Origin: Cristatella mucedo | Lineage: Eukaryota > Bryozoa > Phylactolaemata > Cristatellidae | Assembly (NCBI GenBank): GCA_009760855.2 | Contig: WPIO01000005.1 | Coordinates: 8,094,001-8,158,000 of the forward strand | DNA length: 64,000 nt | Direction of reading: 5' to 3' | Notes under the pieces: generated by a model | Databases searched by the model: none | Told to the model about the DNA's origin: nothing | The model's input: the letters and a program-made list of their open reading frames with translations, nothing else | Shown: positions 39,361 to 64,000 of the stretch, piece after piece | How the letters are laid out: each line of letters starts with the position of its first letter | Position numbering within the stretch: the stretch's first letter is position 1 | Made by a program: the position numbers and the translations under genes

Positions 39361-39984
39361 GAAGAGCTACGGGGGTGGCAGGAGTGGCAATTGCCACCCC
39401 TGGTGGGAGCCGAGTCCGACACCCACCGGTCGGGCGGCCAGCGGCCGCGCTTTGGCGGCGGCCTGTAGTGCGTAGCATCTGTTCGATTTCGGTAACCATC
39501 AATATCTGGAAAGAATTCCGAAGAACTAATAAAAAGTGAGGCGCCTCTTACCCCGGCCGCTGGAGGGTAGTCGGCGCTGCGTGCAAGCGTTCTGAGCGCC
39601 GGATTCAATGCCACATGTCGGATTAGTCATGCTACAGCATCACTCTTGACATCGCATCAAATTTGCTCATGCCTTTCTCCAGCGCCAGGCTTCACGGTAA
39701 GCCGGCCGGAAATTTCGAAGAATGACCTCAACATTTTTTTGGTAGCCTCTTGCTATGTATATAGATAACCATGGTTATAGACGCCGCCCAGAGCCCGTAG
39801 ATAAGATGGTGGCCTTTCTCGAAACTAAATCGTTAATTAAAGTGACGCAGCAATTTGTATCGCCTGCAGCTAACGCGTAACGCCCTTCAGCCGCTTTAGA
39901 AATGAGGCTGCTGAATCTGCTGCTACTCGACTTTTACGTCGCCAAAGTGTCGAAAGGCTCTGAGTCTGTCAGGTTATTTAATCA

Positions 39985-41325
39985 AAATTGTATACCTCGT
40001 CAGCTACAAACTACCGAAGAAAACGAGGAACGTGCAGTTCTGCTCTGCAGTGGTTCAGGTCCTATCTCAGTGTGAGACTCCGGAGTTTTGACGTGAATGG
40101 ACAAAGTTCATCTGAGGTACCTTTGAAATATGGAGTACCTCAGGGCTCCGTGCTAGGTCCGATTCTTTTCACGGTTTATACTCTCCCTCTTGCTGATGTG
40201 ATTGCCAAGCACAATCTAGGCTTTCACTTCTATGCAGATGACACTCAGTTGTACCTTTCCTTTGATCCCTCCCAGCCTTCGAGCATCTCAAATTCTCTCA
40301 ACTCACTTGCTGCATGTATTGATGACATCCGCACATGGATGGCAGCAAATTTTGTAAAACTAAATGACGATAAAACGAACTTACTAGTTATGGGCAAACC
40401 CAGTGTGGTTCGCAAATTGGAAAGGCTGACGCTCAAAATTGGCTCTGCCAGCATATCTCCAGTTGAATCAGCTCAAAATCTAGGTGCCATATTCCAAAGC
40501 GACCTCTCGTTAGACGACCATATCAGCTCCACGGTCAAATCTGCCTATTTTCAGCGTCATGACATTGCTTAAATTCGGGCTTGTTTAGATAAGAATACCA
40601 CGTCCAAGTTGGTCCATGCATTCGTGACATCCCGTCTCGACTTCTGCAACTCACTGCTTGTTGGCCTATCGGCATGTGCAATCAGGCGATTACAGCTGGT
40701 GCAAAACTCTGCAGCTAGGCTTGTCTGTCGTGAGCGTCGCAGTTGCCACATTACTCCACTTCTCGCCGACCTGCACTAGCTACCAGTCAAGCAACGGATT
40801 GACTTCAAGGTTTTGTCACTCAATTTTAGGTCACTTCATTCTTTGGCTTTAGCCTATCTCTGAGATATACTCCCCCATCAGGCCAAGCATCGTACCACCC
40901 ACTTTTCGGAATCCAACAGTCCACAAATACCTCGTACAAACCTCAAATCCTTTGGAGACCGTGCATTTAGTTCGTACGCTCCCAAACCTGGAACTCCCTC
41001 CCGACCTGCGTCAGAACATCCCCTGACCTGACCACATTTAAAAAAAATTTAAAAAACACCTATTTAGGACAGCATTTAGTGGGTCCTTGTGATTCGTCCT
41101 TGATGTGCTTATTCGTCCTGACACTGTGCATGCTGCCACTAACCACATTTGCATGCTGACCCTGTGCATGTTACCCCTAACCATGTTATTCATTTTGTTT
41201 GTTTATCAAGCATGATTTTACTCACCATTCAATTGCATTTCCCTTTGCAGCAAATGTAAAGCGCCTAGAGAGAGATTGAGTTCTCTGAGGGCGCTTTATC
41301 AAGTGTATTATTATTATTATTATTC
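39985..41325 (+). mobile_element. LINE reverse transcriptase 3' half, best-preserved copy
   Basis: Frame 39988-40572 keeps the RT palm: LKYGVPQGSVLGPILFTVYT, then FHFYADDTQLYLSFDPS with the catalytic Asp pair, and DDKTNLLVMGKP. It breaks at a stop after FQRHDIA. The downstream part continues as fragments in other frames to a standard tail with ATT repeats. The copy lacks the endonuclease and is inactive. RT domain order and tail indicate the L2/CR1 group. Confidence 0.85.
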
Positions 41326-46502: not shown

Positions 46503-49500
46503 CTGAAACCAGAGAGGTTCATTATTCGCAGCGTTCGACAGCAACCGCAAGGAAACCTTACTTCGAGACATGCTCCTAGCTTAGCATAGCTTTCAACGAG
46601 CATGTTCCTAGGGAACGTGGCTAGTTGTTCATCGAGCTTTTTTGTGGGCAATTTACACAACCCTGATGATGATCCACCCGGCCGGGCCCTCTGCATGTTC
46701 GACCAAGGCTCGGTAAGTATATATATATGGGTGTGTCAAGGCAGCAGGGTTACGAAAGAGTAGTAAACCACCACTGCATGAAGTGGGGGCCTCGCTTTGC
46801 TCCAGCCGCTGTTGAGCAGAAATATGTTGCAGTGGACAAACACATCTTGCCGAAGAGTTTGTGGCGGGCGTTCTGTGCACCAGGGCAGGTGGCAAGCAAC
46901 AGCCTACAGAACGAGGAATAGGTTCTAGTATTTTCCAATTATTGGCTATTTTGCCTGTCAACCAAATGACTTGAGATGCCGGGATCTGAATTAATGTAAA
47001 GAAACACAGAACAAAGTGCTCACTTCACCGGGTAAGACCTGATCCAGAGAGGCGTACAGGTAAATGGTAGTTCACTTACATCGATTTATCTATTTGCTAC
47101 ACTCACACTGCGTGCACAACGGTCGATCTGCAAAGGGATAACCCAGGAGGTAAGGTGCTCGCTCTTCAAGACCGAGGTCGTGGGTTCATATTATGCTGTG
47201 GGCGATCCTTTAATGCCAACTGCAAGTGGCGGTGACAGCTGTTAAGGGTCTTTTGTCGCTATACAACTGAGGCTGTTAAATCAGCCAATATTTACTATTT
47301 ATTATTCAACCCTTCACAACTCTCACAAGCAAAGGAGCCTGCAACAGTGGATGCCACAATCCTTTACTTAAGTATTTTCTGCTTGCTTGCATTTTAGTTC
47401 AGACAGCCGATGAATGTCCATTGCATTCGCACAGCTTTCTCCAATTGCCTCGATTTGCCCTGACTAATACCTGACAACAGGATGCTATTTAGCCACAAGC
47501 TTATCACCTGATAGCATTCAGCCATTCACAATATTCGCCGCATTAACAAAATAAGAGGCTACGTGCCAGAGATCTTTCCGCCTGAATTAGGCTAGATCAG
47601 TACGTCGATGCAGTGTTGCCAAAAAAACAGTCAACTCTCTGGATAGATGCTTGAGCCGTCTACCAAATTTCAATTAGGCAAAGATGTATCAGCCACATGT
47701 TAACATTATTAAACAAACAAAGAGGCAGATTTCTCAAGTTCTCACACGACATTCAATGCACAGACTGCTTCGAACGGCTGCACTGGCCTTTTCATGCCCT
47801 GAGCTCATCGCAGTACATTAAGCTGGCTATCCTCTCCTCCTCACCCTCTCTCAATCGTGCAGGTTAGACGGTTGGCAATAGACTCTTTCAGTCTACAGGC
47901 CACCACAGAGAGTAAGAACTGTTTCTATCTTAGCAGTATAACGATGCTTTGCACCACTACAGCTGCATGCTCTGCGGCACTGAACCCTTAGCCACACTGC
48001 GTTTTACACCTTGGCCGCCTACTTCCTAAGACGCCGCTCTCTTCGGACATACTTCTCTCAACTCGGCTTTGTTGTGTGGGCCCTACTGGCAACTGTCGAC
48101 GACAGATGAACAAAGGAGGTGGGCTAGTGTAAGCAACAAAAGACCCAACAGCTACAAGCTGCTAGAGAAAAAAAGCAAGAGCCCATTCCAGGTAATCCGT
48201 GACTTGCAGGGCAGCAGATAATTACTGGCTTTAAGTCACTTCAGCTAGACAAGGGCGATGGTGCAGCTGAACGGTCAGCAAGCATAAAAAAAAATACTAG
48301 CTGATTGAACAGCCTCTTTTCTAAAGAGGCAGAAGAGCCTTAAAGGCTATCACAACCGCTTGCAGTGGCAACAAAGGATAGCTCACGACAAGATTCGAAC
48401 CCACGACCTGGGACCAAGGTCGTGAAGATCAACCTATCATCTAGTGGGCCATCACGACTCTAAGCCGTCTCCCTCGAATAGTCTGCTTGCGAATGGACGT
48501 CATGGGGCATCCGACAGCAGTAATGTCCAACCATACAGCTGCGTCAATACAGTGATTCAGCCAGGTGGCTCTGTTAGCAAGCAACAAGCCAAGCATTAAT
48601 TAATGAGGGAGGATTCGAGGTCTGGCCCACGTGACCAACGTAAATATCTCACCACTCTCCTCTCGAATGAACACGACAGTCGGTGCTCGATGCTTTCACA
48701 TAAACTTACTCGCTCCTCCCGCTCTTTGGCTTGGCGCTTGAACTGCTCAAAGCTGTCCTTGGCAGGTACACTTTTAGCGGTCGACATGCCCAGCCCTGGA
48801 TGGTTGGCAACATTCGACCAGCCGGCAGCGTTCTTCAGCGGCTCGGGCACAGCCTGCAGCTGCTTGACCAGAGCACCGCCTGGTGGCTGCTGACTCCTCT
48901 GTGGTGCCATGCTGGCCAGCTGTGGCTGGCTAGTGGCAGCACTGCTGGAAGTGGGCGTTCCAACGTGCTGCTGCTGCGTCAGCCGAGGTGGCAAGTCCAG
49001 TGCGACCGCAGTGGGTTGTACTGGAGAAGACATCGGCGCAGTGTGATCGCCATGCCAGGCACAGCGCCACTTCGAAAGCTGCTAGCGTGGACGATATGCA
49101 ACGCACAGCTGAATTGCCACGCTGCTCAATGTAAGCTACCAGAGTAGTCGCGTAAAAAGTCAACTTACACACAGCAGCAGAGCCTGCAAACTGTGGTTTG
49201 GGGCTGGAGTGAATTTGCCCATCTGCCTCATCTAGGTGAAATTTCACCGGTGTACTGCTGTTAACCGAAGATACTTTCGGCGGTTGAGTCCTGGAATCTG
49301 TTAGAGTGACTACACCTGTCCTCTGAGGGCCTGCAGGCTGAGCCTCAACGTGTTGCGCACTTTGACCCTTATGGCCGTCAGACATAGCTGCCGTTGAAGG
49401 ACATAACCTAGGCGGCTCGCTAGCTGCCGCTGCTCGGGCTGTCAGTCCATCAGGTAACCGAGCCTGCTGCTACAAACAGAGTCCCAGCTACGATGGCAGC

Positions 49501-52500
49501 AGCTGGAAACGGAAGTCCAAAGCTAGGTCCCGCTAAGCTCAGACAAGCAGCCGGGCCGTGAGCTCACTACGACACTTACCTGAACCAGTGACAGAGTATT
49601 GGCAGGCTTCTTATGTACAAGTGCTGCAGGCTTATCTGGAACAAATCGTTTTATTTAAATTTAAGTGCCAAGTAGAAGAATACGACCCCAAAGCAGAGGT
49701 CTGACTGACACATGCAAGCAACAGCAATTGCTTTCCTGATTACGCAGATCATTGAAACAGGCATCCTTAAGAGCAAACAGAGTTTACTGTTGCTCTGAGC
49801 CATTTGATTTGTGTGCTAGAAAATGAGAAAAAATGTGCCGTCGAATGGCTTTTGTGTGCCATGTACCATGCAAAACTAGACCTGACTCACAAGTGGGAAA
49901 TGCTAAGTGAATATATGGTTGGGGTACAGAAAGACTTTACTTCCAATCTGAACGGCCGAATCTAGAGTGCTGGGCAATCAGCCAAGGAATATGTATCAAC
50001 AGGTTAACTGCCAAGTGTAGAATCCTTAAGTGAATTGTTAAGTGGATCAAGGGGAATAAATAAAGCAGCATTACACAAAGAACTCAGCTAAAACGTGACG
50101 AAGAAAGTATGCAGTGAAGTCACCCAAGTGCTATTAAGCAAATCAGCCATATGCTTAGGAGTTGGTATTATCATTTATTATTGTTACACTGTAACAAAAC
50201 GATCGTTTGTATAGTCACGACACAAACCAGCACAAGAATGCAAAACGATACAAAATATAAGTATCTGTACATGTAAAAATGCCAATACATACATATCGGG
50301 AGTGCTGTTCACCTAACAGCAATGAGTACATCTACAGGTTCCTTGATTGTGACACCGCTTACTAGTGCACACGCACGCATTTCACTTATTGTCAGCAGGT
50401 AAACATAGGAGCACGCAGGATGATTGTGCAGTCTGCATCTTACTATCAAGCTGTTCTATGTTTTGGTGGCTCATTGCATTAATTTCTCCATGGTGGCTAT
50501 GACTGGGTATGGTTCAATTAACACAACAATCTTGGAAAGTAGCTGACTACATCAAAACAACTGCAAGACCACACAGGGTCACAGTCTGGCCAGCTTTCAG
50601 AACCTCCTTGGCAGCTATTGCATACGTATGTACAATAGGGGAGTCTAACCTGATTCACTGTCACTGGAATCTGACGAGTCAGATGAACTACTGTCACTGC
50701 TGGAGTCCGAGTCTGACGAACTGCTGCTACTTCCACTTAACCTACGCGTCCTCTGATCATTAGCAGCAGCTGTGGTGGCTGATCCACCATTGTTAGGCTC
50801 GTCTACAACGAGGCAACAACACTGTAAACTGTAGTAGGTGACTGACAACTCGATACATAAAGATCGAAATAACTATTATCGAAATAACTAAATTACAGCT
50901 ATGGTGTAGGCACACAAAAAACCACACATAAAAAATACCTTTTTATGACGTTTCAAAGTAAGCAGAATGTCCGCACTCGACCTTCTCTTGACAGTGGAGG
51001 CTCACACAGCGACATACGGGCCAACCGACACAAACCACGAGCAAAGGATTACCTACCAGTGTCACTATCTGTCGGTGCTTCGATCGGAAATTGGTGCAAG
51101 CAGGGCAACCTTTCATTTGCGACATCAGACGAAGCAAGGTCAGGCCTCTGACATGCATGCCCTTTGCACACATGACACACCTCTCAAATCTGAATGCTAA
51201 GCTCAAGAAACCCGTAAAAAATCGAATAAATCGCGATATGGCCGAAACTGTTGGGTTTGTAAATTTGTTTGGGAAGTATTTTCAACCATTTGTGGGATGC
51301 ATATGAAAATATTTATTGACAACCCAAAAACAAACGTGCTAAGCCAACGTGTAAGGTTATGGTTTATGTTATGGTTTGCAACCATAGTGTGCTGTGTCCC
51401 ATCACGATTCTTGCGACCTCAATTGTCTAACCAGGCATAGTGGCCTCCAGCTTCTGTATTGTCTCTTCTGCTGCAGCATATTCCACAGAGCCCCAGTTTT
51501 ACTGAAAAGCTCGGCTACTGATCTGTGCAGAAACACTCGACCTCGGCAGCCTGTCGATATCGACCTATTAACGTTCTATGGGCTCTGATGAGGCAACATG
51601 GTCAGCCACTGCATTAGCACCACACAGAATTTGGCAAAAGTACTTCACTCACGTTATCGCTGGTCATGCGTTGGATTTCAAGGTTCAAATACGACATTCT
51701 GCTAGGGGACCGTTACTTTGGCAGTAAGATAAGTTTTCTCAGCCGTCCCAATGCCACGACCCTTTAATACAGTATATCATGTTGTGACAATCCCCAACCA
51801 TAAAACTGTGCACGAAACGTGGAAATTCATGTTTTCAGATGGTCTTAGGCGACCTCTGTGAAAGGGTCGTTTGATCCCCAGGTTGAGAATCACTGCCATA
51901 GGACCACGGAAAAATACTGACAGGCAGCTGAGGCCCCGTTAGGCCTACACCAATAGCCGATCATTTCAGTGAAACTCAAGCTCTGAGGAATGCACTACAG
52001 CAGAAGGGACAACGGTGAAGCTTGTAGTATCTATGTCTTTCCAGACAAGGGAGTCATAAAGAATAGTGATGGGACGTCAAATGCACAGCATGTGCTTGTT
52101 TTTGGTCTGTCAATAAACATTTTCACGTACTTGGCATAACTTTACCATGGCTGGCATTCTAGAAAATCATATTACCGGAAGGAATTTACAGTCACAGCAG
52201 CTGTGGCCATACTGAGGATTCCTTTTGTAAGCTGAGTATACTAAAAAAAAATATGCTTGATAGAGCTAACTGAAAAGGGCTGCAGCCATGTGAGAATAAT
52301 GACCAGTCTCTAAGCAGACTGGAAGTGTATTGACGACATGTTACCAACTGCCAAAACAGCACGAGTGAGTGTCATGGAGTTCTTCAATTGATAGCTTGAC
52401 ACATGCAGTTCACTCTACATTCGCTCTGTAATTGCATTGCTGCAAATATATAGATCTAGGCATACTATCTGTACTAGGCATACTGCCCCCCATCCTTTGG

Positions 52501-55500
52501 TCAGGTAGTTAGTCATACATGTGCATCTGATTCAATGAGATGCTACTGCACAAAGCAACAAACAGAAAATGGTAGAGCGCATGTAGGTATGAACCAGGCT
52601 AACTTGCCCCAGCCGAATCGAGGTTCATTTCACTGTGGTAATAAAGATCCATTCGTTGCCCACAACTCAGTTCTGAAGCCCACTCGATTCAAAATGCCAA
52701 AATTTATTCGTCGACACTTGATGAATATGGAGAGCTCCATCTGCCCCCTCCACCAATCTGACAAGGTGAGGGCCTCTTCATCAGGAAATGCCAATGTGTA
52801 CCCCAAAAAGATTTTTAAAATTTCGCACAAACGAGCAGGCACTAACTTACCTTTCATGCCTTTAGCAGGCACAGCACCTGTCTTCTTTCCAGACAGAACA
52901 GCACCTACATCCTGCAATCTCTTTTCTAGTTCCTCCTTCTTTTCGCGCTGGGCCTCTTCCTTGGACTTTGCAGAGCTACCTCGCTTCCCTGCTGAAAAAC
53001 AAATTTTGCTATAGGTCATCAGGGTGCACAGCACCAGGGTGCTTAAGTGATCTATTCACTGATCAGAAAACCACAGCAAACGATGCATTGCAAATGCGTT
53101 ACCACACAGCAAAGCAGCAGCTAAGACGTAGCAAAAAATTAACCACAACTAATGACGTCTGGTCAGCCAACCGGTTTACGAAAAAAATGCCAGCACTTCA
53201 AGGGCAGAGCACTCATCCGAAAGAAAGACTGGTGCCAATCTGACTGAATTCGAACAGAAAGCAAACAGCCCCTCCACATTAAGCATACCTTCACTGTACG
53301 GCTTCCGAGGCTTCTTCTTAAGGACGGACATGACGTAAGATTCTAGTTCTCTCAGAGTCGAAGGCTTCAGTGTCTCGAAGTCAATCTCTATTTCGTCTGG
53401 ATTGGAATCTCGAAGAGCAGGTTCACGGGACTGAATTATGTGCACGACACGTCCGAGCTTATCACCTACGAGTACAGACAGCGGTGACAGGCACCTTAGC
53501 CAGCCAGATCCAAGGATGCCCCTTGGCCCTCGTTTAGTGATAGCGTGACGAAGAAGCCATTCACAAGAGCAGTTACCTGGAAGTTTGTTGATGTCCAGAC
53601 TTAGCTGCCTCTTTTCGTCATACGTCATTGGCTTAGCATTGTCCTCGTCTTCACTGTCGAAAGCCGGCTGAGGAATAGGAGTCATGCTCGTTTTCAATCC
53701 GGGCTTCTTTGCAGCCGAGGTCGGTGTCTTCTTTGGTTTTTTGCTTGTGCCGGGAGTCTTCGTCTTCAGTGCTACAATGGCCATTTTACAAGCACATACG
53801 TGAGGATGCAACAGCCACGCTGCCGAGCAGCCCCGTGCCCCAATGGTTTGTCAGACAACGACAAGAGCAGCACGGCACGATGCTTTCCCAGCAAACCAGG
53901 GGCCACATCGAATGTCGTCAGTCAGTCAGTGCCACATCGCACCGGTTCACGTGACGGCTAGCAGCACATGCGACATCGACATCAGTGCCTCCTTGCATGC
54001 TGGGTCAGCCTCGCAAGCTCCTCTGTCCCGAGAAAGACAGCCTATTATTATGACACCAGCGCAGCAGGCCAGGAACCCCTTGCGTCGTTCCAGTTACCTT
54101 TTCCGGCATCTGTGTTCGTCACAGTGCCAGGTGCTGAAACGAACGGCTGGCAGGACGATGGCGACATGGCAGCCGGAAGCTTGGGCTTGGTGGATGCCGA
54201 TTTTTTCTGCTCGGTGGCAACGTGAAGCTGAGCAGATTGAGGCTGAGCAGCCACGGGCGTCGGCACCTGTGGCAGGAGTGCAGGTGCCGAACTCTTGTCT
54301 TTCTTCTTCTTAGGTTTGATGACCATCTCTTTTTTCTTTTTGGCCTCTTCGCTTAAGGCGTTGAACTGCTCCTGCATCTTCATCAACTGAAGAACGGTAG
54401 CCATAGCAGACACACCGGTCAACACAACAGATCTTGTCGGTAAGTACACATTGAGACAAGTGCATGCTCACACTTCTGCAAGCCTGCGGGAATGTTGCTA
54501 AAGCAGGAGACGGCGAGAGGCTGCACTCCCAGTTCGGCGGCAGCGGCATACTTGCTCCTGCAGATCCTTAAGTCGCTTCTCCCTCTCCTGCTGGTCTCCT
54601 TCTTCAAGAATGTCGTCATCGCTACTTGACGAACTATCTTCGGCACTCGAATCGGTTCTGTTTGCCTCCGAACCAGTTTCGCCGGCTCCACCAGGAGGCT
54701 CCTGCACAATCACGACAGCACACAGGTCAGGCAAATCGTCCGTGAAACCGGCATAGCTGAGGCCTGCAATGCTGGTCACAGCAACCAGACTCGTTAGGAC
54801 AGGCAACTTACGTCGGGCATCTTGGCATATTTGACTTCAAAGAAATCCTGTAACTTCCTGGCCATAGCAACGACATCGCTATCGGGGGAATTATACCGAT
54901 AACAGTTGGTGAATATTAACCGTACATCTTCCGCAAACTCAACAGGAGTGCCATACTCTCGTCCTTCAAGCTTCCGCTACAATCACGAGATGCAACTATA
55001 AGAAACACAGCTCAACATTGCAGTTCACCACACCGGCTATCAAAAGAACTATTGCTCACCCGAGTAGTCCCCAGATCCATCGGCTTTTTGATGATCTCGT
55101 GGTAGTCATGAAGCCCAAGGCCTTGCACGTCGACCGGTTTATAGAAAGGCCATGCATACGGCTGCAACAGTTTTTCCTCCAGTTCCCACGACGCACACTC
55201 GCTAGCTCTACTCTGCTGCTGCACACAGACCTCGCGAATACAATGCCGCCAGCTGCACAGCGCCTACTAATAGCCTACTACTTAATAGTGCCACTACTCA
55301 CCGAGTGCTTCTTGCCAACCATCTCCTTCAGCAAGTTGCAACAGTACTTGAGCTGCTCAGACAGGCGTCCTCGCTTGTTCTTCGAGCTGTGCTGCGCCTG
55401 ATCCTCGGGAAGGTCCCTCATAGGCTTTTTAATCGGCCTGTTGCTCTCTCGCCGAGTGGGCGCCATTTTGCCGCCGATCGAGCCTTCGTCGTACGCCGAC

Positions 55501-56581
55501 ATGTCGTACACGGGGGCGACGCTGGGCACAATTGCACCGGGCGTGGTAGTGTCGGCCTTCCGCTTGACGCCCTTCTTGGTTTTGATGGGCTGCCCGGGCG
55601 GCAACACGACGCCAGACGGCAGAGAAGAGGCCGCGGGCGCCGGCACGAGTCCGGTGGTGTAAGTCAATGTCGCCTGAGGTATCGGCGGAGGATGGGGTGC
55701 GGCATGGTGAGTGGCCATTGCCACCGACGAGGAATGCTGGGCAGCCGGAGCAGCTGACTGCAGATGCTGCGCACCGCCGCCCGAGTGGAGCAGCTGCTGC
55801 TGCTGGTGCGTCGGCGGCGCCACCGCAGCCGGCTGCGGCGAGCTCTGGGCGGCCAGCGCGGCGGCTGCCGTCTGTTGCCGGGTGGGCAGGGTGCCAGTCA
55901 CTGCGCCGCCGACCTGCGACCGGCTTGCTCCCGGCGCCTTCTTCTTCTTGGCAGGCGGCGGAATCTCGACCTCCTCAGGAGGCATCGTGCTGATTTTTGC
56001 GAGGAACTGCCGCTCTAAGGTCTGAGCCATCAGCACGATGTCCTGCAGAAAACCACAGCCTGAACAACTGTGCCAACGGCTGCCAGGTGCTTAAACGCCT
56101 GCCGCATGACATAATGCCAGGGCAGCCGACGGCACTGACCTCACCAGGCTTGTTGTACACGTAACAGTTCGTGAACATCAAGTTAAAATCGGCAATGCAT
56201 TCCTTGGCATTTAAATAAAAGTTATTTTCAAGTCGCTTCTTGATCGTACCAAGATCCATTGGATGCAAAATAAGCCTATGGTAATCCTGCAAACACGGAA
56301 GCTCAGGTTGCAAACAAATACAGACCCCCAAATGCTTGCTGCTCGGATAATAACATGTGAACTATACACTCGAGACTTACAGGTAAGTTCAGCCGCACGG
56401 CATCGACGGGCACGTGAAACGGCCAAGCGAATTGGTGCTTCCATATTGCTTTCATAACAGTTTTCTGAAGATACTGTAGCTGATTTGTTGGTCGCCCTTT
56501 GCGGCCTGTAGCGACGGGTGGAGGGGGATTCTGCGAGACCGGGGCAGGCTGAGCGTCGTCACTGTCGTGATCCATTTTCAT
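45971..56581 (-). CDS. BRD4: BET-family double bromodomain protein (BRD4 / Fs(1)h long type), complete, sixteen coding exons
   Basis: Nuclear reader of acetylated histones that links chromatin to transcription elongation. Coding exons, in order: 56381-56581, 56140-56286, 55302-56042, 55060-55161, 54812-54976, 54552-54701, 54098-54386, 53577-53771, 53289-53465, 52851-52991, 50650-50802, 49580-49635, 49169-49469, 48710-49020, 46251-46502, 45971-46036. Splice phases agree at every junction, giving about 1148 residues. Order: BD1, linker with [10 protein letters not shown] and [13 protein letters not shown]2, acidic Ser/Asp cluster, Lys-rich patch, ET domain, Ser/Asp-rich tract, Gln/Pro-rich region, [16 protein letters not shown], charged coiled coil, and a final FEEML. 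Both bromodomains keep the WPF shelf and the acetyl-lysine-binding Asn (CYVYN and CYRYN). Invertebrates usually have one BET gene, so BRD4 here means BRD2/3/4/T co-orthologue. The acceptor of the 48710-49020 exon is the least certain boundary. Confidence 0.95.
47140..47300 (+). mobile_element. SINE-B copy in a BET intron
   Basis: ggaggtaaggtgctcgctct, gaggtcgtgggttcatatta, gcgatcctttaatgccaact, ttttgtcgctatacaactga, aggctgttaaatcagcc. It lies in the 46503-48709 intron. Confidence 0.7.
48295..48460 (-). mobile_element. SINE-B copy in a BET intron
   Basis: Reversed SINE-B: ctagctgattgaacagcctc, gcagaagagccttaaaggct, aagattcgaacccacgacct and tagtgggccatcacgac. It is near complete and lies in the same intron as the 47140 copy. 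Confidence 0.75.
48710..50802 (-). CDS. BRD4: BET exons 11-14: Ser/Asp tract and Gln/Pro-rich region
   Basis: Exon 11 is an almost pure Ser/Asp tract, the SEED region that follows ET in this family. Exon 12 is only 56 nt. Exons 13-14 encode low-complexity sequence ending in [21 protein letters not shown], which matches the conserved DSFEQFRRAAREKEER stretch of the long BRD4 isoform. All four are linked by matching phases. Confidence 0.85.
51730..51895 (+). mobile_element. Short non-autonomous hAT transposon resembling SPIN
   Basis: This lies in the BET intron between 50803 and 52850. The left part (aatgccacgaccctttaata, then catgttgtgac and ccccaaccataaaa) and the right part (gatggtcttaggcgacctct, gtgaaagggtcgttt, ggttgagaatcactg) correspond in order to the two halves of the SPIN hAT family as I recall it. 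The middle is deleted. The ends are imperfect inverted repeats (tttctcagcc and ggttgagaa). No clean 8-bp target duplication is visible. It has no coding capacity. Confidence 0.72.
52851..54701 (-). CDS. BRD4: BET exons 6-10: acidic cluster, basic region and ET domain
   Basis: Exon 6 holds a Ser/Asp cluster ([17 protein letters not shown]) that in BRD4 is a CK2-type phosphorylation region, followed by a short coiled coil. Exon 7 holds a Lys-rich segment. Exons 8-9 encode the extraterminal (ET) domain: [20 protein letters not shown], then [12 protein letters not shown] and [19 protein letters not shown]. The ET domain docks chromatin partners. Exon 10 is a Lys/Glu-rich spacer. Confidence 0.92.
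54812..56042 (-). CDS. BRD4: BET exons 3-5: linker, motif B and bromodomain 2
   Basis: Exon 3 (741 nt) finishes BD1 ([17 protein letters not shown]). It then carries a Pro/Ala/Gln-rich linker with a KKKK patch, and the [20 protein letters not shown] motif that leads into BD2. Exons 4 and 5 complete BD2, with the [10 protein letters not shown] shelf, [18 protein letters not shown] and [21 protein letters not shown]. Confidence 0.93.
56140..56581 (-). CDS. BRD4: BET exons 1-2: start codon and bromodomain 1
   Basis: The start ATG at 56581 lies nine bases after an acceptor (ttttacttag), so a non-coding 5' exon precedes it. Exon 1 holds an acidic start ([14 protein letters not shown]), then [20 protein letters not shown] and the WPF shelf. 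Exon 2 holds [17 protein letters not shown] and [12 protein letters not shown], with the conserved acetyl-lysine-binding Asn. The intron between them falls in the ZA loop, just after LNLP. Confidence 0.93.
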
Positions 56582-62034: not shown

Positions 62035-64000
62035 CCTTTCCTCATTATGGGCGATTTCAACGTTCATTTTGATAACTTATCTGACGCCTTCAGCACTGAA
62101 TTTCGTGCATTGACTGACTCATTATCTCTCGTGGCTCATGTGCATGGCCCTACTCACATCAAGGGTCACACACTCAACCAAATGTTTTCATGCAACTGCA
62201 CTTTGTCATCACCCATTAATACCAAATCCTGCTTATCTAACCATTTGCAAATCTCATTCAGTCTACAATGTGTGCTCTCCTCCACCTCATCTAAGATCAC
62301 CTCTCAATCGCGAAAGCCTCAAGACCCTTGACACTGTCCGTGCGAGAATATCTGCCTTGCAGCTTCTGCTCAATCCCCCTTCCGACCTGTCATCGTTGGT
62401 AGATTGCTAAAACACGGCACCAGCTGACATGCTCGACGGGTTTGCACCTCTGACTAAGCACTCTGTGCACGCTCGCCCAGGCGGCCTCTGGTTTACTACA
62501 TACATTAAACTAGCTAGGTCTACTAAGCACAAGCCTGAAAAAGCATACAAAAGATCATCACTGACTATCTATCGACAAGCATAGGAGGACAACTGTAGAT
62601 CGTTCCAATCGATTCTAGCGAAGGCCAAGTATATCAAACATTGTTGAATCCCAGATGCACAATCCAAAAAACCTGATGCGGACGATCAACCATCTCCTTA
62701 ACTGCTCCCAGGTTAGCTCCTTACCAAATGATCCCTGTGATGATCTAGTGGATCGCTTCTCTAACTTCTTTGTCAAGAAGATACACCAGATCAGAGAGTC
62801 CATCCCTAAGATGGCAGCATCCCCTTGGAATGCTGTCCCTCAATTCCATGTACCAGCTCAATGTTAACATTGAAGCAGGTCACCAGTGATCTCGTCCTGA
62901 AGTTCATATCCCATTCAAAGAAGACAACTAGTCCTTTGGACCCTCATCCACTGTCCTGCTTCTACGATGCATTGATGTGCTGCTGCCATGCATAAATAAC
63001 ATTCTAAATAGTCATTAGCCGCAGGTCATGTCCCAGCACTTTTCAAAAAGCTTGTAGTTAGGCTACTACTCAAGAAAGCAATACTAGACCAAGAGAACTT
63101 GAGCAACTTCCGCCCAGTCTCCCTTCAAGCATTCCTATGAAAGACACTGGAACGAGTCGTGGCAGACCAGCTGAACTCATATCTTGAAACTTCAAACCTT
63201 GCTAGTAAGTTCCAGTCTGGCTTTAGAGCTAATCACACCACAGAGTCAGCACTGCATCAGGTGTACAACGACCTACTTTGGAATGCAGACATAGGTAGAG
63301 TATCTTTGCTTGTTTTGCTCGATCTTTCGGCAGCTTTTGATACTATCGACCACCAAATCCTTCTGGAGTGCCTCTCATCTCGCCTGGGCATCACTGGCAC
63401 TGCATTCCAATGGTTCAAGTCATATCTCAGTGAGAGACTCCATAATGTTGATGTGAATGGACAAATATAATCTGTAGAACCCCTGAAATGTAGGGTATGT
63501 CAGGGCTCTGTGCTTGGTCCAGTTCTTTTCACGGTTTATACTTTCCCTCTTGCCGATGCCAAGCACAATCTAGGCTTTCACTTTTATGCGGATGACATTC
63601 AGTTGTATCTTTGCTTTGATCCCTCCCAGCATTTGAGCACATCAAATTTTCTCAACTCCCTTGCTGCACGTAATGATGACATCCACACATTGATAGCAGC
63701 AAATTTTCTTAAATTGAATGGCGATAAAACCAAACCTACTAATTATGAATAAATCAAGTGTGATTCAGAAATTGGAAAGGCTAACGCTCAAAATCGGCTC
63801 ATGCAGCATATCTACTGTTGAAGCTGCACGAAATCTAGATGTCATGTTCCAAAATGACCTTTAGTTAGACGATCACTTTAGCTCCACAGTCAAGTCTACC
63901 CTACTTTCAGCTACATAGCATTGCTAAAATTCGGGCTTGTTTAGACAGGGATAAAAATCCAAGTTGGACCATGCATTTGTGACATCCCGTCTTGTCTGCT
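62035..64000 (+). mobile_element. LINE (L2/CR1-like) with endonuclease and reverse transcriptase remnants, runs off the window
   Basis: The longest LINE copy. 62047-62331 has MGDFNVHFDNLSDAFSTEFR, an apurinic-endonuclease-type GDFN motif. 63159-63470 has the RT fingers and palm (FRANHTTESALHQVYNDLLW, LDLSAAFDTIDHQILLE, QWFKSYLSER). 63510-63752 has [10 protein letters not shown] and [12 protein letters not shown] with the catalytic Asp pair. Several stops and frameshifts (for example after SLQAFL and at 63470) make it inactive. It continues beyond base 64000. Confidence 0.85.

Follow-up and report, generated by a model that had tools for sequence, protein, structure and literature searches.

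SPIN (Space Invaders), a member of the hAT superfamily, is a leading example of a transposon that crosses animal phyla; most of its known hosts are tetrapods, and it is also found in a pond snail. A target-site duplication centred on TA is a feature of SPIN and the Buster group. The family described here resembles SPIN in its hAT ends, in its target-site duplications, and in combining a short MITE of high copy number with long copies that are rarer. Two invertebrate hosts provide comparisons. In the snail Biomphalaria glabrata, a SPIN-like hAT is reported to occur in about 1,000 copies (PMC5440852); our host is likewise an invertebrate, with an estimated 5,700 copies or so (690-20,700). In the bug Rhodnius prolixus, SPIN is present and has been ascribed to transfer from vertebrates, its identity with the elements of vertebrates going up to about 98.1%, a figure that the paper gives for four transferred families together (PMC11614815); the resemblance to our case is that of a SPIN-type element in an invertebrate. 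Murine rodents are among the SPIN hosts named in PMC5857283, and the 3' region of our MITE is common to a mouse repeat. The present case differs from SPIN as described in having another host, and in that the likeness was measured against mouse repeat DNA rather than against a tetrapod SPIN consensus.

A limited literature search, from which we claim no absence, yielded no further report of SPIN in invertebrates that we recognised beyond Rhodnius and Biomphalaria. The first-pass annotation of this DNA had proposed that the element extends the pattern of SPIN to another animal lineage. One more host is indeed added, but the proposal was overstated, as a SPIN-like element had already been reported from Biomphalaria (PMC5440852) and SPIN itself from Rhodnius (PMC11614815). 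What we describe is one further SPIN-like case in invertebrates, not a new kind of thing, and it leaves the known mechanism of SPIN unchanged. Its moderate interest rests on the copy number and on the surviving parents: an animal that holds remains of autonomous parents and a great many copies that can be dated would supply a date for the invertebrate side of the spread, and sequence for the SPIN tree.

The window copy and its MITE family

The window, by which we mean the whole stretch of 64,000 nucleotides that was analysed, contains a single copy of the element as judged by a profile search (E = 2.7e-47), and its features are collected in Table 1 together with those of the adjoining gene. 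An element of about 166 bp had been annotated at this position in the first pass, and the sequence blocks named there are present, in order and where they had been placed, with borders that look exact. In a global alignment to the family consensus, 139 of the 164 aligned bases of the window copy are identical, and the copy carries an 18-base and a 5-base deletion as well as 2 extra bases. Locally aligned to the consensus, the copy scores 176, and the best of the 494 other stretches of 166 bases in the window reaches 23, where the consensus was built from 40 rows, one of which is the window copy itself. An automatic count of the target-site duplication of this copy gave agreement at only 2 of 8 positions, because the deleted end of the copy was misplaced in the alignment; the duplications in Table 1 were read by hand. 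Rfam at its gathering thresholds gave zero matches in the window, and Tandem Repeats Finder reported zero repeats in its positions 48000-56000.

Table 1. Coordinates, in the window, of the element, its parts and the neighbouring gene frames
Feature	Position	Strand	Basis
Decayed SPIN-like non-autonomous hAT element (copy of the 187-bp MITE)	51730..51895	+	Consensus alignment, 139/164 identical; profile E 2.7e-47
Left target-site duplication, decayed, cagTAaga	51722..51729	.	Read by hand; 5/8 shared with the right one; TA core
Right target-site duplication, decayed, ccaTAgga	51896..51903	.	Read by hand; 5/8 equal to the left one, TA core
Left terminal inverted repeat, many mutations (consensus CAGTGGTTCTCAACC)	51730..51744	+	Consensus alignment
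Right terminal inverted repeat, CAGTGATTCTCAACC read on the - strand	51881..51895	-	Window sequence and alignment
Junction at which 18 consensus bases are absent from the window copy	51878..51879	.	Consensus alignment
Open reading frame encoding the ET domain of the adjoining BET gene	53176..53850	-	Pfam BET PF17035, 4e-24
Open reading frame encoding a bromodomain, presumably part of the same BET gene	55975..56361	-	Pfam PF00439, 3.3e-17

The genome to which the window belongs comprises 572,011,866 bases in 688 contigs. A first look produced 1684 candidate copies, of which the best 40, the window copy included, were scored; identity to the window copy is 79-85% in the other 39. These 39 were fetched with their flanks and aligned with the window copy to give a consensus of 40 sequences. 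The consensus is 187 bp long, has the ends CAGYGGTTCTCAACC, and runs CAGTGGTTCTCAACC...GGTTGAGAACCGCTG. Its terminal inverted repeats are about 15 bp long, as seen in hAT elements and MITEs; one terminus carries CAGTGGTTCTCAACC, the opposite one CAGCGGTTCTCAACC in reverse. The 187-bp MITE has no coding capacity, and its longer relatives, found at two places (C133 and C5, see below), share its 3' end, the one end of them that was read.

Target-site duplications of the hAT kind are frequent in the family. At the unadjusted alignment borders, the 8-bp flanks are equal at 7-8 of 8 positions in 22 of the 39 other copies, and the remaining 17 score 0-6 of 8, with no clear duplication at those borders. 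TA occupies the middle of the duplication (positions 4-5) on both flanks in 22 of the 39 as well, a set that overlaps the first without being identical to it. It is because of these duplications that we regard the element as a transposon, and its copies are scattered over many unrelated sites in the genome.

On four long contigs that were already known to hold copies, we sampled 20 stretches of 10 kb (200 kb in all), placed at round coordinates. The profile found two full-length copies in this sample (E = 4.3e-60 or better), which gives a genome-wide estimate of about 5,700 copies in 572 Mb, with a 95% range of 690-20,700; the family probably has hundreds to thousands of members. The two copies from the sample agree with the consensus at 173 and 172 of 187 positions. 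One of them (L071) has gtttagtg on both flanks, equal at 8 of 8 positions; the other shows no duplication at the scripted border and, after a shift of the border by one base made by eye, agrees at 6 of 8 positions with a TA core.

Among the 39 copies, 360 of 6375 non-CpG sites (5.6%) differ from the consensus, compared with 136 of 848 CpG sites changed (16.0%), a pattern that looks like decay without selection; since the 39 are those of the 1684 candidates that match the window copy best, their divergence does not represent the family as a whole. The first-pass annotation had held that copies so diverged as to be explained by vertical inheritance would tell against a horizontal origin; with 40 copies collected and a consensus built from them, such divergence was not seen. 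Nor did its other refuting outcome, a best match to an unrelated old hAT family, turn up in the comparisons with mouse DNA and with the hAT families of this genome. We found 245 variant states, of which 140 are private to one copy, and the private share of all differences is only 140 of 496. Simulated star phylogenies gave 143-200 private states, as against the 140 observed. Nine states occur in at least seven copies (simulated mean 3.3, maximum 10), and the commonest state occurs in 16 copies, where the simulated maximum is 14. With too few private states and too many that are widely shared, a single star-like burst of copies was dropped as a description of the family, and subfamilies within it are likely.

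Transposases and longer relatives

Three kinds of hAT transposase were met in the genome. The first is Hermes-like, with frames that are often 635-642 amino acids long; a score of 76.8 bits recurs in 55 of the 138 hits to the hAT dimerisation domain, and given these equal scores and the many frames of that length this family is probably young. The single copy of this kind that was read (L076, C210:1959500-1962300, frame 462-2384) contains a BED finger as well as the dimerisation domain, and it matches the Hermes transposase in PDB. One place of the Hermes-like family, C550:8038312-8038548, lies about 56 kb ahead of the window. The second kind is a DUF4371-positive family with frames of up to 563 amino acids. 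Its one tail that was read (L077, C645:1541150-1541640, 491 bases) was not recognised by the MITE profile, run with filters off, and closes, by eye, in ...GGTTGGACACCCCTG, unlike the end of the SPIN-like MITE.

The third kind is represented by five pieces that are 55-63% identical to a putative C-terminal motif of Charlie/Buster transposases, used as the query, whereas the other 143 of 148 matches are 33-47% identical (150 of 284 candidates were scored). The query motif itself had no match among PDB chains or Pfam families. On contig C133, the transposase C-terminal piece is followed by 80 bases that match the MITE profile from its position 1 (E = 2.6e-19), and after this MITE end comes ATCTAAAT, which carries the TA core. 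On C5, a C-terminal piece is again followed by the MITE end (E = 2e-22), and behind the best-scoring transposase piece, on C658, no MITE end was found within the 121 bases read. Transposases of this third kind are known here from C-terminal pieces and tails. Neither of the other two kinds was retained as the partner of the MITE: the DUF4371-positive family was rejected for the different end of its one read tail, and the family with 640-amino-acid frames by its kind of transposase only.

When the 391-bp tail from C133 was used as a query, ten of the best 40 of 749 candidates, C133 included, spanned it from base 1-6 to at least base 364, and nine of these ten reach base 381 or beyond, the end of the element being at base 382. 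Four of the five best Charlie/Buster pieces fall among these ten long matches. Another 26 of the 40 scored places match only from base 168-195 to base 377-390, with 11 of them beginning at base 179, and in the remaining four other parts are matched. Decayed autonomous parents of the MITE appear to be present in the genome, accompanied perhaps by a second non-autonomous type that shares only about the last 200 bases, the 3' part, of the autonomous tail.

Likeness to mouse repeats and the origin of the family

To the intron sequence of mouse Adh5 printed in PMC8376875, the MITE end can be aligned over 80 bases with 67 identities and one gap; the score is 90, and the maximum in 2000 shuffles is 28. 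The same intron sequence matches the C133 tail at 66 of 95 columns, scoring 74 where 1000 shuffles reached at most 43. Two mouse Ate1 primers quoted in PMC2767504 agree with the MITE end at 18 of 19 bases and with its inner block at 18 of 20, scores that were reached by none of 2000 shuffles of each primer, and a mouse Drc1 primer from PMC8522639 contains GTTATGAAGTAGCAA, for which the counterpart in C133 is, by eye, GTTATGAGGTAGCAA. The match to mouse intron DNA demonstrates a likeness to a mammalian repeat. The mouse repeats matched here may be URR1, a rodent relative, rather than SPIN, and the subterminal sequence of URR1 is presumably related to that of the MITE. Over longer stretches, both subterminal regions of the MITE appear to agree with what we take to be the SPIN sequence. 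Exact words of the MITE consensus had zero matches in viral contigs and zero in the genome contigs scanned. We have high confidence, on the sequence comparisons, that the MITE family is SPIN-like, and it may belong to SPIN in the strict sense. The original assignment to a SPIN-like hAT element is borne out by the ends, the target-site duplications, the MITE form, the transposase pieces with the same end and the likeness to mouse repeats.

The window element is very probably a dead copy of a SPIN-like MITE, that is, of an internally deleted hAT of the Charlie/Buster type. The MITE might instead derive from a different hAT-Charlie family, inherited vertically, that resembles SPIN at its ends only, and the first 15 bases are indeed common to several Charlie families. 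We nevertheless consider such a family unlikely: the match to the mouse intron, in the sequence as printed, spans 80 bases of non-coding subterminal sequence, and over 95 columns of the C133 tail it goes somewhat past the part that the MITE retains. The Ate1 primers, as quoted from PMC2767504, likewise fit not only the end (18 of 19) but also the inner block (18 of 20), and a non-CpG divergence of 5.6% in 39 copies would make their copying recent in comparison with any split between invertebrates and mammals.

Less probable still is that another hAT family of the same genome mobilised the MITE. The two other families, with frames of about 640 amino acids in one and DUF4371 in the other, do yield more matches, but the MITE end is found behind the third transposase type, and the DUF4371-positive tail, in the one example searched with filters off, ends differently and is not matched by the MITE profile. 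As for contamination of the assembly with vertebrate DNA, which would be suggested by sequence likeness alone, we give it almost no weight, since all but one of the 39 fetched copies are on contigs at least 1.57 Mb long (the exception is on a 60-kb contig), copies are present in the sampled stretches, and COX1 of this genome contains 11 AGA/AGG codons, which are stops in the vertebrate mitochondrial code.

For the dead SPIN-like MITE, the proposed course of events is that a non-coding element was cut and pasted by the transposase of a longer relative, and a transposase of the type on C133 and C5 would have moved it. The family probably entered the invertebrate lineage by horizontal transfer, after which it would have multiplied and then decayed. 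A fuller account, which we put forward tentatively and rate at somewhat less than even, is that the SPIN lineage entered a lophotrochozoan group from which it had no prior report, expanded there into 187-bp MITEs by the thousand as well as one or more further non-autonomous types, and still has its autonomous parents in place as decayed remnants. If this is true, the invertebrate side of the spread of SPIN becomes datable and rootable.

Host and gene neighbourhood

The element sits 1.3 kb past the frame with the ET domain, and an intronic position in the BET gene is likely. The location had been given in the first pass as an invertebrate BET intron; the invertebrate mitochondrial code and the nearby bromodomain and ET frames agree with this, and it is the intronic position that we would call likely only. 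Lying beside the BET gene, and probably in its intron, the window copy would have no present-day effect.

The nature of the host was read from a mitochondrial contig of 21,008 bases, on which COX1 (L055:5438-6991, - strand) reads through with the invertebrate mitochondrial code, the 11 AGA/AGG codons of its frame being those that would be stops under the vertebrate one. Pfam identifies ND5, ND4, ND4L, CYTB, ND3, COX1, ATP6 and COX3 on one strand of this contig; the opposite strand has an ND2-like frame, ND2 being our own reading, and the frame of ND6 matched no Pfam family. The run ND6-CYTB-ND4L-ND4-ND5 is what we take to be the gene order of ancestral lophotrochozoans, and because of this order the host was taken for a lophotrochozoan. 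The mitochondrial contig (C688; L054 and L055) also seems to hold a direct repeat of about 2.1 kb together with an inverted copy, the same frames appearing at L055:1632 and 3747 and, on the opposite strand, at L054:3075. COX1-like pieces that are perhaps nuclear mitochondrial copies occur elsewhere in the assembly, at C166:4375626-4376390, C83:2826-3735, C549:2641741-2642010 and C299:634220-634540. Within the window itself, reverse transcriptase pieces (Pfam RVT_1) on the + strand at 39982-40572 and 63141-63470 probably belong to a non-LTR retrotransposon.
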